This document shows, in pieces, positions 16,095 through 22,337 of a DNA stretch of 38,125 bases (its first letter is position 1; the number at the start of each line of letters is the position of its first letter). The DNA is from Coriobacteriia bacterium. GTDB taxonomy: Bacteria > Actinomycetota > Coriobacteriia > Anaerosomatales > SLCP01. The stretch lies in contig JACUUN010000011.1 of NCBI GenBank assembly GCA_014859265.1, forward strand, positions 1 through 38,125, in the 5' to 3' direction. The position numbers and the translations under genes were made by a program. The notes below the pieces were generated by a model. It made no database searches. It had not been told where the DNA came from and saw only the letters and a list, made by a program, of their open reading frames with translations.

Positions 16095-18515
16095 CTATTC
16101 TTCACGGGCGACTTCGATGGTCTTAAAGGCCTCCACGACGTCACCCTCCTTGATGTCCTGGAATCCATCGATACTCAGTCCGCACTCGTAGCCGGAGCGG
16201 ACGGTCTTGACGTCGTCCTTGAAGCGCCGGAGCGAGCCCAGCTTGCCTTCGTAGATAACGGTGCCGTCGCGCACCACCCGTACCTGGTCGTCGCGGGATA
16301 TCTCGCCCTCCTGTACGTAGCAGCCTGCGACAACTCCCATCTTCGGCACGCGGAAGAGCTCGCGAATCTCGACCCGCGCGGTGTCCTTCTCGTGGAACTC
16401 CGGAGCGAGCATGCCGACGCGGGCGGCGTTGATGTCCTCGATGGCCTGATAGATGACCCGGTAGAGCCGGATGTCGACGCTCTCCTTCTCGGCGAGCGAC
16501 TTGGCTTTGGGCTCCGGCCGCACGTTGAAGCCGATGATGATTGCATCCGAAGCATCGGCAAGCATGACGTCGGTTTCGGTGATAGCGCCGACAGCCGAGT
16601 GGATGACGTTGATCCGGACCTCGGTCTGATCCATCTTGTCGAGTGCGTCCTTGAGAGCCTCGATCGAACCCTGGACGTCGGCCTTGACCACAAGGTTGAG
16701 ATCCCTGAGCTCACCTTCCTGGATGCGTGCGAACAAGTCATCGAGGGAGACGTGGACCTTCTTATCCTGGGCGAGCAGACGCTGCTTGAGGGCACGCTCT
16801 TCGGCCAGGTTACGCGCGTCACGTTCGTCCGCGAAGATGCGGAACTCGTCTCCCGCGGACGGCACATTGCCGAGGCCGATAATCTCGACCGGATCGGCGG
16901 GCCCAGCGGAGACCACGGTCTCGCCGAGGGGGCTCACCAGGGCGCGGACGCGACCGTGGGTCGTCCCGGCGACGATCGAATCGCCGACGTGTAACGTACC
17001 GCGCTGCACCAGAACGGTGGCCACTGGGCCGCGACCTTTGTCGAGTTTCGCCTCGATGACGATACCTGATGCCGGAGCATTCGGGTTCGCTTTGAGCTCC
17101 AGAACATCCGCCTGGAGCAGGATCATCTCGAGCAGCTCCTGGATGTTCAGCCGCTGCTTTGCCGAGACGTCAACGAAGATGTCAGAACCGCCCCACGCCT
17201 CCGGTACGATCTCGTGCTCGGTCAACTCCTGGCGGACGCGATCCGGGTTCGCTCCGTCCTTGTCGATCTTGTTGACCGCCACGATGATCGGAACGCCAGC
17301 GGCCTTCGCGTGGTGGATTGCCTCGACGGTCTGTGGCATGACGCCGTCATCAGCGGCGACGACGAGCACTGCGACGTCGGTGACCTTCGCACCACGGGCG
17401 CGCATCGCGGTGAACGCCTCGTGTCCCGGGGTGTCGATGAATGTGATCTGCTTGCCGTCGTGGAACACGACGCTCGCACCGATGTGCTGCGTGATGCCCC
17501 CGGCCTCGGTCTCGGCGACGCCCGTCTCGCGGATCGCATCGAGCAGCGAGGTCTTACCGTGGTCGACGTGGCCCATTACGGTCACCACGGGCGAACGCGG
17601 CTCAAGATCCTCGGGAGTATCGTCGAATACGAGACCTGTCTCCTCCTCGGGGCTCACCACGATCACTTCGCGGTCGAGATCGTCCGCGATGAGCTCGACG
17701 ATGTCGCTCATCATCGGCTGGTTGACGGTGAGCGGGGTGCCAAGGAGCATGAGCCGCTTGATAATCTCGGTTGAGGGGATGCCGAGTGCGTCGGCGAACT
17801 CGCCTACGGTGACGCCCTCGGTCACGGTGATGAGCTCCCCGTCGCCAACGGCGACGGGTGTGGTGACCTGTCCTATCTCGGCGACCGCCTCATCAGCGTG
17901 CTTCTGACGCTTCTCCTTGCGCTTCTTGCGCTTGCCTTGCTCGGTTGCCGCGGCGGCTACCGCCTGCTTCGCCTCTTCGATGATGGTCGAACGCGATACC
18001 TCTTCGACCTGTTTGGCCATCTGACGGTACCGGTCTTCTTCGCTCTTCTCGAGGGTGCCGGCCTCCTCCGCCTCTCGCTTCGCGCGCTCGACTGCCTCAA
18101 CGGCGTGGCGCTCTTCCTCGGCTTTGCGGGCGGCCTCTTTGGCGGCGTGCTTCGCGGTCTCCTCGTCCTCTGCAGCGCGACGGGCCTCCTCAGTGATGCG
18201 GGCGGCTTCCTCCCGGCGCGCACGCTCCTGGGCCGCGGCCGCGCGACGGGCATCGTCCTCGGCTTTGCGGGCGGCTTCCTCGGCCTCGCGTTTCGTAATC
18301 TCCTCCGCCTCGGCCTTGAGGCGCTCTTGCTCGAGTGCGGCCTGGCGCTCGGCGATGAGCGGCCCGAGGTCCTTGCGGATCTTGTCGACATACGCCTCGA
18401 CGAGCGTGGAGGCGTGATTCTTTGCAGGTATCTTCATGACCTGGAGCTGCTCGAGCAGCTCCTTGGAGGTCATGCCGAACTCTTTGGCGAGTTCGTGGAC
18501 TCTCATGCTGGGCAT
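16095..18515 (-). CDS. infB: Translation initiation factor IF-2
   Basis: This 806-residue GTPase delivers initiator tRNA to the 30S subunit. The start chosen is ATG at 18515, four bases after the rnpM stop; an ATG nine bases further in is an alternative. An N-terminal IF2_N domain ([21 protein letters not shown]) is followed by a long Ala/Glu/Arg-rich charged helix (about 55-205) and a second IF2_N module. The G domain has GHVDHGKT (315-322), [20 protein letters not shown] and SAK. Domains II, III and IV follow to the end. The Bacillus ylxQ gene, normally between rnpM and infB, is absent. Confidence 0.98.
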
Positions 18516-18519
18516 GCGT

Positions 18520-18822
18520 TCACCGTCCTTGCTGCGAGGTTGCCGCATCGGCGAGCAGTGCCTCGAGGTCTCGTCTCAATCGGTCTAGGTCGTCGTCGTG
18601 CAAGTGGACACGCAGTGCAGGGTCGAACCTCCGCCGGCCGGCTGCTGCGTCGAAACACTCGACGCTCGGGCAGACGTACGCACCCCGGCCATTCACCTTC
18701 CCCGTAGGGTCGAGCTCGATGTGGCCATCGCTTGTGCGCACGATACGCACGAGGGCGCGCTTATCGTCAGCGCGACCGCATCCAACGCAGGTTCGCGTCG
18801 GCATCTTGCGGGTGCGTGTCAC
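18520..18822 (-). CDS. rnpM: YlxR/RnpM family RNA-binding protein
   Basis: This is a 100-residue protein of the DUF448 family. The signature TCVGCG (11-16) and [12 protein letters not shown] (45-56) provide four cysteines, and the core reads LVRIVR then [14 protein letters not shown]. In Bacillus this protein has been reported to bind and modulate RNase P, hence the name RnpM. The start is GTG at 18822, overlapping the nusA stop by four bases; an internal ATG six codons on is possible. The position between nusA and infB is typical. Confidence 0.93.
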
Positions 18823-19964
18823 GTGTTAGCACCCTCCTTCTGGTGGATGCCACAGTAGACGCTTCCGGGGCGCGCTTTGTTGCGGCAGCGGAGCCCGGAG
18901 CTCGTCACGGCGACGCAGCGTCCGTCGGTCTCCTCCTCGGGAGTCGTACCCTCGGCTGCGGCCACCTGCGCGGCTAGACCAGCCTCTGCGGCCTGCGCCT
19001 GACTCTTGATGTCGATTCTCCAGCCGGTGAGCTTCGCGGCGAGCCGGGCGTTTTGGCCCTCCTTGCCGATGGCCAGCGAGAGTTGGTCCTCGGGCACGAT
19101 GACCGTGGCGATGTGGTTCTGCTCGTCGATGAGCACCGTAGTGACCTTCGCGGGCGAGATGGCGTTCGCAACGTAGGAGGCGGGCTCTTCAGCCCAGGGG
19201 ATGACGTCGATGCGCTCTCCGCGCAACTCGCTCACGATCATGCGGACGCGGCTACCCTTCGGGCCCACGCATGCGCCAACCGGGTCGAGCCCGGACTCGC
19301 GGCTCGACACCGCTACTTTCGAGCGCATGCCGGGCTCGCGCGCGACGCTCTTGATTTCAACGATCCCGTCGTAGATTTCCGGTACCTCGAGCTCGAAGAG
19401 ACGGCGGATCAGTCCCGGGTGGGTGCGGGAGACGACGATCGATGGCTCGGTCGACGTCTTGCGAACCTCGATGATATAGGCCTTCAGGCGCTGGTTGTGG
19501 TCGTAGCGCTCGTTTGGGGGCTGCTCGGCCGGTGGCAGCAGCGCCTCAACACCCTCGCGAAGCTTGATGAGGGTGTAGCGGCTGTCTGACTGCTGAACCG
19601 TGCCGGTCACACTCTCCCCGACGCGGTCCGAGTACTCCTCGTAGATCTTTTCGCGTTCCGCCTCGCGGATCGATGACATGATGACGTTCTTGGCCGCTTG
19701 TGCTGCGATTCGAGAAACGTCCGCGGGGGTGATGTCGTGCTCCTCGAACTCAGGCTCCTCTTCGGTGCCCCCGATAGGGATGAGCTCGTAGACGTAGATA
19801 CGGCCGGTCTCCCGGTCGATAGCGACCCGCGTGTCGTTCTCAAGGTCGAGTATGCGACGGTAGGTGGTAGCAAGCTGCTGCTCCAGCCTGTCGAGTATCT
19901 CGTACTCGTCGATGTTCTTCTCGCGCGCCAGCTGGCGCAACGCCTCCATGAGTTCAGAGCTCAT
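18819..19964 (-). CDS. nusA: Transcription factor NusA with Cys3His C-terminal tail
   Basis: This 381-residue factor controls pausing, termination and antitermination of RNA polymerase. The N-terminal polymerase-binding domain covers about 1-110, S1 about 115-182, KH1 about 200-275 ([20 protein letters not shown]) and KH2 about 276-322 ([21 protein letters not shown]). The KH2 end is followed by a linker and a short domain with C350, C360, C371 and H374 (C-x9-C-x10-C-x2-H). This is the pattern of small zinc-binding DUF5763-like knuckles and is not part of usual NusA proteins known to me. The start ATG at 19964 overlaps rimP by four bases. Confidence 0.97.
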
Positions 19965-20449
19965 CGCTCACAACCGCCTTTCGCCTGCTCGAAGTCCACC
20001 TCGCCCTTCAGCCGCGCGTTGCGCACGTTGCCGAAGGGAATGCGGACGGGTTCTCCGTCTACGTCCAGGACCACCACGTCATCCTGGACACTCTCGATGG
20101 TGCCGGTGAATCTCGTACGCCCGTCTATCGGGCGGGTCCTGAGCGTCGCCGTGGATCCTGCGAACCGCTCGAAGTCAGCCAGTTTGCGCAGCGGCCGGTC
20201 GATACCGGGCGACGACACCTCGAGAGTGTAGGGCCCGTCGAACGGTTCGGTCTCGTCAAGGAGCGCGGAGACCCACTCGTTGGCCTCGCATATCTCATCG
20301 AGCCCGATACCGCCGTCCCGGTCGAGGTAGACGCGGAGGATCGGCTGTGCGTGGGCACCTGCAAGCTCAACAGCGACGAGTTCAAGCTCGTGGCTGATGG
20401 CAGCGGGCGCGAGCGCGGCTTCCAGGCGCGCTTCGAGTTCCGTTGTCAC
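19961..20449 (-). CDS. rimP: Ribosome maturation factor RimP
   Basis: This 162-residue DUF150 protein is needed for 30S subunit maturation. Motifs are LVAVELAG, ILRVYLDRDGGIGLDEI and LEVSSPGIDRPLRKLADFERF, followed by the SH3-like C-terminal domain. The start is GTG at 20449 with a perfect AAGGAGGT (20457-20464) seven bases upstream. It heads the rimP-nusA-rnpM-infB group. Its 5' side carries a likely promoter and a terminator-like hairpin, so this operon is probably controlled by attenuation. Confidence 0.96.
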   Translation of the reverse strand: MTTELEARLEAALAPAAISHELELVAVELAGAHAQPILRVYLDRDGGIGLDEICEANEWVSALLDETEPFDGPYTLEVSSPGIDRPLRKLADFERFAGSTATLRTRPIDGRTRFTGTIESVQDDVVVLDVDGEPVRIPFGNVRNARLKGEVDFEQAKGGCER

Positions 20450-20471
20450 TTCACCGACCTCCTTCCAGACG

Positions 20472-20496
20472 AAAAGAAGCGGGGGTTACCCACTTC
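20472..20496 (-). terminator. Terminator-like hairpin in the rimP leader (candidate attenuator)
   Basis: On the minus strand GAAGTGGG and CCCGCTTC pair over 8 bp (one G-U) around TAACC, then TTTT. It lies between the likely rimP promoter (20524-20552) and the rimP ribosome site (20457-20464), with only seven bases between T-run and ribosome site. That position suggests premature termination control rather than the end of an operon. NusA, encoded in the same operon, could act on it (inference). Confidence 0.6.
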
Positions 20497-20523
20497 TCGC
20501 AGGACACGCTGTAGACCTCGATG

Positions 20524-20552
20524 ATTCTACCACACCGTTCAGCGCGGAAGAA
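20524..20552 (-). promoter_or_regulatory. Promoter for the rimP-nusA-infB operon
   Basis: On the minus strand a weak -35 TTCTTC (20552-20547) is followed by 17 bases and TAGAAT (20529-20524), extended by TGG just upstream. The local sequence TGTGGTAGAAT matches the class seen before rpsO and rpsB. It lies directly after the proS terminator-like hairpin. Confidence 0.6.
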
Positions 20553-20577
20553 CCTGCGGATTGGTCCCGCCGCAGGT
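20552..20577 (-). terminator. Terminator-like hairpin downstream of proS
   Basis: On the minus strand ACCTGCGG and CCGCAGGT form a perfect 8-bp stem around a 10-base loop, then TTCTTCC. It lies 32 bases after the proS stop and just before the rimP promoter. The T-tract is broken, so termination may be partial. Confidence 0.55.
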
Positions 20578-20609
20578 CGAAAACGAGGACTGCCCACGGG
20601 GAAAGCCGA

Positions 20610-22337
20610 TCAGCGGTAGCGGGAGCGCTCCTCGGCGATGCGCGACGCGAGTGTCTCGACGAGTGCATCGATTGCGACCTCTGTTCGCTCTCCCGTCGAC
20701 CGCTCCTTGAGTTCAACGACGCCAGCGGCGACACCGCGCTTCCCAATCACGACCTGATACGGATAGCCGACGAGGTCCGCATCGGCGAACTTCACACCGG
20801 CCCGTTCGTCCCTATCGTCGATAAGCACCTCCACACCGGACTCAGCAAGTCGGCGCCAGAGCTCGTCGGCGACCGGCCAGACCGTGTCGTCATCGACGGA
20901 GAGCGGGACAACCGCAACCTCGAGAGGAGCGACCGATATCGGCCATACGATGCCGGAGTCGTCGTGGTGCTGCTCGATGACCGCGGCAAGCGAACGTGTG
21001 ATGCCGACCCCGTAGCAGCCCATGACGAAGGGGCGCTCGGTACCGTCCTCGGCCGTGAAGGTAGCGCTGAGGGATTCGGAGTACTTCGTTCCGAGCTGGA
21101 ATACCTGGCTGACTTCGATACCCCGCGCGCTTCGCAGCACGCCGCCGCACACCGGACAGCCATCGCCTGGTTCTGCGACGACCAGGTCGGCCCAGAGGTC
21201 GACCTCAAAGTCACGACCGGGCATAGCACCGATGAGATGGTAGTCGTTCTCGTTCGCGCCGATCCCCCACGCTACCTCCTCGTGGAGCGAGAGGTCGGCA
21301 ACGACCAAAGTGCCCTCGGGCGGTGACACGGGGCCGAGGGAACCGCGGGGGATGCTGTACGCGGCGAAATCCTCGTCTCCGAGGAGCTCGACTCCGGAGA
21401 CCGCACGCAAGGCCTTCAAGGGGTTGAGCTCCCGGTTCCCCGGCACGCAGAAGTATACGAGCATTCCGTTCGGCGTCTTGCCGGCCATCGTCTTGACGGT
21501 ATCGTGCTCTGGGATGGCAAGGAACTGCGAAAGCTCGGCGATGGTACGGATGCCGGGCGTGTGGACGCGCTCCATCGGGCGCGGTTCGGTGATGCCAGAC
21601 GTCTGCGGTACGACGGTGCCTGCCGCCTCGATGTTTGCGGCCCACCCGCACTCGCAGTAGACGAGCGCAGCCTCCCCGGTGTCGGCGAGTGCCATGAACT
21701 CAGTGGTGACTGAGCCGCCGATCTGCCCAGAGTCGGCCTCGACCGGGCGGAATGTGAGACCGAGACGCTCGCAGATGCGCCCGTACGCGCGCGCCTGATC
21801 GTCGTAGTGCTCCTGCAGCGACTCCTGGGAGTCGTGGAAGGAGTAGGCATCCTTCATGATGAACTCCCGTCCGCGGAGCAAGCCGAAGCGGGGACGCATC
21901 TCGTCGCGGAACTTCAGGTTGATCTGGTAGAGGGAGAGCGGCAGGTCGCGATAGGAGCGCACCTCTCCACGGACGAGAGCGGTGATGATCTCCTCATGGG
22001 TCGGGCCGAGGCAGAACTCCCGACCCTGGCGGTCGCTCAGGCGCGCGAGTTCGGGACCGTATGCCTCCCATCGCCCGGACTCCTGCCAGAGTTCGGCGGG
22101 CTGCACGAAGGGCAGAAGGAGCTCCTGCGAGCCGATCGCGTCCATCTCCTCACGGACGATCTGCTCGATCTTGCGCACGCTGCGCCACCCGAGAGGGAGG
22201 AACGTGTAGATGCCGGCGGCCGCCTTGCGGATCATGCCGGCCCTCAGCAGTAGGCGGTGCGAGGCGATCTCTGCCTCGGTCGGATCCTCCTTCAGCGTCG
22301 GGACGTGAAGGTTGCTCATGCGCAGCGCGACGGTCAT
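20610..22337 (-). CDS. proS: Prolyl-tRNA synthetase (bacterial type with editing domain)
   Basis: This 575-residue class II synthetase charges tRNA-Pro. Motif 2 lies at about 143-168 (FRDEMRPRFGLLRGREF, then IMKDAYSFHD). Motif 3 is GCYGVGITRSLAAVIEQHHDD (about 440). Between them (about 240-400) is the YbaK-like insertion that deacylates Ala-tRNA-Pro, as in long bacterial ProS. The C-terminal anticodon-binding domain ends the protein. The start is ATG at 22337, with GAGAGA upstream; a second ATG six codons on lacks a ribosome site. In Bacillus proS follows rasP and precedes polC; here polC is missing and ispG intervenes. Confidence 0.97.
   Translation of the reverse strand: MTVALRMSNLHVPTLKEDPTEAEIASHRLLLRAGMIRKAAAGIYTFLPLGWRSVRKIEQIVREEMDAIGSQELLLPFVQPAELWQESGRWEAYGPELARLSDRQGREFCLGPTHEEIITALVRGEVRSYRDLPLSLYQINLKFRDEMRPRFGLLRGREFIMKDAYSFHDSQESLQEHYDDQARAYGRICERLGLTFRPVEADSGQIGGSVTTEFMALADTGEAALVYCECGWAANIEAAGTVVPQTSGITEPRPMERVHTPGIRTIAELSQFLAIPEHDTVKTMAGKTPNGMLVYFCVPGNRELNPLKALRAVSGVELLGDEDFAAYSIPRGSLGPVSPPEGTLVVADLSLHEEVAWGIGANENDYHLIGAMPGRDFEVDLWADLVVAEPGDGCPVCGGVLRSARGIEVSQVFQLGTKYSESLSATFTAEDGTERPFVMGCYGVGITRSLAAVIEQHHDDSGIVWPISVAPLEVAVVPLSVDDDTVWPVADELWRRLAESGVEVLIDDRDERAGVKFADADLVGYPYQVVIGKRGVAAGVVELKERSTGERTEVAIDALVETLASRIAEERSRYR

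Follow-up and report, generated by a model that had tools for sequence, protein, structure and literature searches.

The leader of the rimP-nusA-ylxR-infB operon in the window (the whole stretch of 38,125 nucleotides that was analyzed, from a Coriobacteriia bacterium) is, with a probability that we put at about 0.8, an autogenous transcription attenuator acting through NusA. Transcription would start near position 20517, and about 20 nt would be made before the polymerase reaches the hairpin. There it would meet a weak intrinsic terminator, whose stem is short and has a U.G wobble in its middle and whose U-tract is interrupted at the fifth base. Abundant NusA would increase pausing, hairpin folding and release, yielding a leader of about 45-50 nt, while scarce NusA would let the polymerase read through into the operon. 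A competing RNA structure would be unnecessary, and the hairpin would serve nusA and not rimP. This type of switch is already known, as the rimP-leader; what our analysis adds is an argument drawn from the loss of rimP.

Organization of the operon and its leader

The operon lies on the minus strand, downstream of proS on the same strand (end at 20610), and comprises rimP (20449..19961, with a GTG start at 20449; Pfam RimP_N 2.8e-17 and DUF150_C 1.9e-17), nusA (19964..18819; NusA_N, S1 and KH_5), ylxR (18822..18520; YlxR 1.1e-25) and infB (18548..16095; IF-2 and GTP_EFTU), in that order. The product of nusA is the likely feedback factor. Its C-terminus carries a zinc-finger-like extension with a C/C/C/H pattern (about 18819-18940, minus strand), which gave weak Pfam matches to zf-TRM13_CCCH (1.5e-4) and DUF5763 (0.017) and is covered by most of the NusA matches in 14 class genomes.

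The proS-rimP gap spans 160 bp, and all of its elements are read on the minus strand. The first is an 8-pair stem 3' of proS (20577..20552). Its interpretation as a proS terminator in the preliminary description is unconvincing, since the TCTTCC that comes next is no real U-tract and the terminator scan was silent. A candidate -35 element (TTCTTC, 20552..20547), poor with 2/6 matches and a spacer of 17, precedes an extended -10 element (TGG-TAGAAT, TGGTAGAAT; 20532..20524) that is recognized by its sequence and by its conservation in relatives. The start placed near 20517 from this -10 element would leave a 5' leader of about 20 nt (20517..20499) ahead of the predicted terminator hairpin of 8-10 pairs (20498..20474), for which sequence, conservation and a covariance model (R1, see below) all speak. 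The core of this hairpin, GAAGTGGG-TAACC-CCCGCTTC (in RNA, GAAGUGGG-uaacc-CCCGCUUC; 20496..20476), has 8 pairs, and two outer pairs extend it to 20498..20474, with -14.1 kcal/mol for the 10 pairs. These outer pairs are overlapped by the interrupted U-tract, UUUU-CGUCUGG (20475..20465), in which TTTT occupies 20475..20472. Seven bases then separate TTTT from the perfect Shine-Dalgarno sequence of rimP, AAGGAGGT (20464..20457), and the coordinates and spacing originally given for this second stem, its TTTT and the ribosome site proved exact.

When taken as a single sequence, the leader was unremarkable. A strict consensus scan for promoters and terminators called neither the promoter nor the hairpin, its counts being at or below chance, and a fold of the 180-nt whole region was no better than its shuffles (z -0.19). 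Rfam returned nothing useful for the whole window at the gathering score; for the leader at E <= 10 the rimP family, RF01770, was absent and two chance-level matches to other families appeared. A search of 21 genomes from the window's order did not detect RF01770, and E. coli alone was matched among the control genomes (1/14). Consequently, the case rests on conservation.

Conservation of the hairpin and the promoter

Sampling at the class level yielded 110 regions upstream of rimP, with a RimP match in 189 of the 197 genomes searched. A hairpin with T-rich DNA was present ahead of rimP in 106 of these regions, compared to 349 of 2200 shuffles (15.9%), and control stretches taken from the other strand or from further upstream held a hairpin in 18 of 216 cases. 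For other classes of the phylum the count was 48/69, against 186/1380 shuffles (13.5%) and 27/137 control stretches; these scans were restricted to hairpins of the TGGG, CGGG and TGGC types, which match 13-16% of shuffles and leave swapped pairs at the phylum level invisible. A regular expression for the hairpin matched 96 of the 110 class regions, and most of its 14 misses hold the hairpin when examined by eye, clear departures being confined to L106 and L109.

In the rest of the phylum, the hairpin was missing in 22 of 70 regions, one of which (L117) had too little upstream DNA. Large genomes of families f40 (L114, L131 and L141) and f45 (L157) showed no such hairpin before rimP, and the f45 region counted as a match (L164) looks like chance. 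Six regions of family f23 (L129, L136-L138, L142 and L143) carry, in place of the usual hairpin, a stem of the inverse type (CCCC..GGGG) ahead of T-rich DNA, which resembles the inverse motif reported in Gammaproteobacteria by Naville and Gautheret.

The promoter was conserved together with the hairpin. Within the window's order, 52 of 66 leaders scored 7-8 (of 8) for the -10 element, a level reached by 0.5% of shuffles; TGn was present in 59/66, and the element was placed 34-42 nt 5' of the hairpin core in 61/66. At least 4/6 matches to the -35 were found in 47/66 order leaders versus about 6% of shuffles, many relatives having a TTGAC-like sequence. These counts, like those for antiterminators, leader peptides and ribosome-site pairing given below, retain the order leader L018, whose anchor was a different hairpin. 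The promoter and the terminator-like hairpin of the preliminary description are therefore both conserved elements (52/66 leaders and 106/110 regions, respectively); for the promoter itself, those 52 leaders have a strong -10, and the -35 of the window's genome is weak (2/6).

The covariance model R1, built from 57 order leaders, matched the window's genome once up to E 1 (best 50 of 612 first-look candidates scored), and this match was the leader itself (20508..20461; 66.5 bits, E 1.4e-15). Across 119 genomes, with at most 50 first-look candidates scored in each, 103 had a match at E 1, and in 76 it reached E 0.001. Of 296 class genomes, 148 contained an exact pattern like that of the window, with zero counts for the reversed control in every row; among the matches listed it fell in a single place per genome, overlapping tail lengths being counted repeatedly.

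Comparison of the stem across relatives, which the preliminary description had proposed, revealed conservation (106/110) but no two-sided changes within the order. Since the stem pairs there are nearly invariant, the sequence of the stem seems to be constrained as well as its pairing, and support for pairing at the order level would rest on invariance and not on covariation.

Conserved weakness of the predicted terminator

The features that should weaken this terminator are themselves conserved. A U.G wobble occupies the middle of the stem in 103 of 106 class hairpins, and the same position is U-A in 42 of the 48 hairpins found in other classes of the phylum. Bases 1-4 of the U-tract are U in 64-65 of 65 order leaders, while base 5 is not U in 63/65. 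Distal interruptions of the U-tract have been described as marks of NusA-dependent terminators (PMC8060035), and the suboptimal hairpin and/or distal U-tract interruption that define such terminators in B. subtilis are found here. The wobble and the broken U-tract hence suit a weak, NusA-stimulated terminator. Overall, the promoter, the hairpin, the broken U-tract and their spacing are all conserved, which strongly supports the initial proposal that this putative terminator functions as an attenuator.

The hairpin in the absence of rimP

Six genomes of the class (G073, G075, G077, G081, G085 and G089, from families f20 and f21) have NusA and no RimP_N match. In all six, 18-32 bases separate the end of the R1 match from the NusA match that follows, and although the R1 scores were weak in G073 (E 0.008) and G081 (E 0.96), the exact pattern was nonetheless present in every one of these genomes. 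Their completeness is 77-94%. However, the absence of a gene between hairpin and nusA does not hinge on completeness.

A scan of the pattern across bacteria yielded at least 115 loci and at least 121 oriented sites, in which RimP was called within 800 nt downstream with a profile made from 60 RimP proteins of the study loci. Among the matches listed, RimP was downstream at 62 of the at least 121 sites, and NusA came next at 21 of the 59 sites without RimP. These 21 sites belong to Chloroflexota (10), Omnitrophota (4), Planctomycetota (3), Actinomycetota (2) and other bacteria (2), again among the matches listed, and the NusA match starts 55-200 nt past the start of the hairpin at 20 of them, the match at the remaining site (L219) being partial. 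The two actinomycetotal sites are probably those of genomes G085 and G089, with which their leaders are identical. RimP_N was detected in 0 of the 21 NusA-next genomes among the matches listed, as opposed to 10 of 14 control genomes. The total is 25 distinct genomes with the hairpin directly before nusA, six of the class and 19 other bacteria (among the matches listed), none of which has RimP_N.

Neither RimP nor NusA was found downstream at the other 38 of the at least 121 sites (among the matches listed), and the short pattern alone is therefore unspecific outside the operon. One of the 38, L281 of Omnitrophota, when inspected by eye leads into the NusA start that L280 also has before its contig ends. 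The other 37, for which no link to the operon was seen, include opposite-strand readings and cut-off contigs, and 13 of these loci are from Clostridia (among the matches listed). The pattern also recurs in similar surroundings away from nusA, twice in one Defluviitaleaceae genome (L225 and L241) and once in each of three Rhizobiales genomes (L234, L253 and L282).

A tree of NusA with 102 rows (26 without rimP and 76 with it), unrooted, built with a quick method and containing some long branches, required 4 changes of label, at least 3 of which are forced by well-supported branches, compared to 23 in shuffles. We infer that these changes are losses of rimP, and on several occasions the hairpin seems to have persisted beside nusA after rimP was gone. 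Its position directly before nusA where rimP is missing, in 3-4 separate changes on the tree, ties the element to nusA (or infB) and not to rimP. The feedback by NusA that the preliminary description had suggested gains support from these rimP-less genomes and would fit what has been described in B. subtilis (PMC12288461) and S. agalactiae (PMC4448216).

Five genomes (G083, G095, G072, G087 and G091; loci L302, L303, L305, L306 and L308) have RimP frames of only 94-123 residues. These frames are apparently cut off after the N-terminal domain, perhaps representing a gene in the process of being lost, and the genera concerned lie near genera without detected rimP.

Candidate factors acting on the predicted terminator

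Loss of rimP excludes RimP as an essential regulator. It would be compatible with a role of IF2, because infB stays in the operon. Control by IF2, by YlxR as the other retained product, or by another protein that binds RNA and recognizes the sequence of the conserved stem is unlikely in our judgment. It would account for a stem sequence conserved beyond pairing, and among the matches listed 15 of the 21 NusA-next sites are followed by InfB, no more than 2247 nt of downstream DNA being available at the other six. Nevertheless, NusA is a known termination factor with reported autoregulation in B. subtilis (PMC12288461), and YlxR went undetected at 7 of the 15 NusA-next sites that have InfB (among the matches listed).

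We give very little credence to the view that the hairpin simply terminates proS transcripts or blocks read-through from upstream. The proS gene is the immediate neighbor on the same strand, and ProS lies upstream at 17 of 30 loci, with a contig end too near to tell at some of the other 13. However, a conserved promoter separates proS from the hairpin, and the hairpin persists at four f19 loci where 1500 nt of upstream sequence contain no ProS match; it is consequently not tied to proS. Its position directly before nusA in genomes without rimP also speaks against a proS terminator.

Control of termination by a leader peptide or by a competing RNA structure, be it an antiterminator or one that hides the ribosome site, is highly improbable. 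The window does have a GTG frame that crosses the hairpin, and in its minimum-energy fold the ribosome site is base-paired to UCCU. Across the order, however, we rejected each version. A conserved leader peptide was discarded because open frames, present in 46 of 64 leaders, are also present in 54% of shuffles, and all three frames are used (28, 22 and 18). An antiterminator was supported in 0/64 order leaders at p <= 0.05, and pairing of the ribosome site was near chance, with 5/64 leaders at p 0.05 and a median p of 0.33. With no antiterminator, leader peptide or ribosome-site pairing, a factor that acts directly on the terminator remains. The NusA-autoregulated leader of B. subtilis is not known to have an antiterminator.

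Family f19, which is Eggerthellaceae-like (L025, L027-L029 and most of L071-L090), shows a conserved UACUUUCG that ends about 5-12 nt before the hairpin. This segment is complementary to the 5' arm GAAAGU of the hairpin, and where the arm reads GAAAAGU (L077 and L090) the upstream segment becomes ACUUUUC. The antiterminator test for the family was passed by 3 of 26 leaders at p 0.05, and the arm-swap control is weak, since its 28 leaders have only 7 different arms among them and L075, one of the two informative rows listed, goes the wrong way. A family-specific antiterminator formed by UACUUUCG is possible.

Finally, control by RimP, namesake of the published family, finds some basis in rimP being the first gene in most genomes seen and was named as a possibility by Naville and Gautheret (PMC2965389), but it is scarcely credible given that RimP_N is found in 0/6 class genomes and 0/21 pattern-scan genomes (among the matches listed) that keep the hairpin before nusA.

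Comparison with known systems

The rimP-leader was the attenuator most often found by Naville and Gautheret in 2010, with NusA as the best candidate for its regulator (PMC2965389). The window and the rimP-leader, as that paper describes it, share the operon, a short G-rich/C-rich GGG..CCC hairpin, a stretch of U, the proximity of the ribosome site and the lack of an antiterminator. More specifically, our element lies in the 5' UTR of the rimP-nusA-infB operon, and its G-rich 5' and C-rich 3' arms correspond to the published GGGc(...)gCCC, with GUGGG..CCCGC in 106 of 110 class regions; the inner c-g pair next to GGG is missing in the window's genome and present in order members such as L023. 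The downstream U-stretch has four U and then a break (65 order leaders), and no larger conserved element or antiterminator accompanies it (0/64 order leaders at p 0.05). Unlike the published rimP-leader, the U.G wobble is nearly fixed in the window's class. A hairpin before nusA where rimP is missing is likewise not part of the rimP-leader description in PMC2965389, and among open-access papers we found none on the fate of this hairpin in rimP-less genomes.

The NusA of B. subtilis regulates itself by stimulating termination within its own leader (Mondal et al. 2016, as summarized in PMC12288461). There, as is predicted from sequence for the window, a leader terminator controls entry into the gene. 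The preliminary description had pointed to self-regulation of the E. coli nusA operon by other means; regulation by the same means has in fact already been described. Leader transcripts of the S. agalactiae gbs0413-gbs0418 operon stop 31 nt after the start site, and feedback by NusA has been proposed (PMC4448216). That leader is also very short and precedes an operon with rimP, nusA, infB and rbfA; its transcripts have been seen, whereas ours are predicted from sequence. The metY-nusA-infB operon of E. coli has terminators t1 and t2 upstream of rimP, and NusA regulates its own operon, but the arrangement differs in the presence of metY, several promoters and RNase III sites (PMC6511841).

Implications

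We tentatively propose, with odds somewhat short of even, that what is called the rimP-leader is in truth an element of nusA: an ancient terminator, conserved in sequence and sensing NusA, that stays with nusA after the loss of rimP in members of the Actinomycetota (Coriobacteriia), Chloroflexota, Omnitrophota and Planctomycetota. The conserved stem, GUGGG..CCC(G/A)C, and the interrupted U-tract would then constitute a tuned signal read by the complex of NusA and polymerase, and not just any weak hairpin.

Our analysis would extend the nusA/rimP leader attenuator to a clade in which Rfam sees nothing. The hairpin that stays with nusA when rimP is gone provides a natural deletion test of which product this widespread leader serves, and the wobble and the interruption of the U-tract, both conserved, are specific features with which the reading of a terminator by NusA may be measured.
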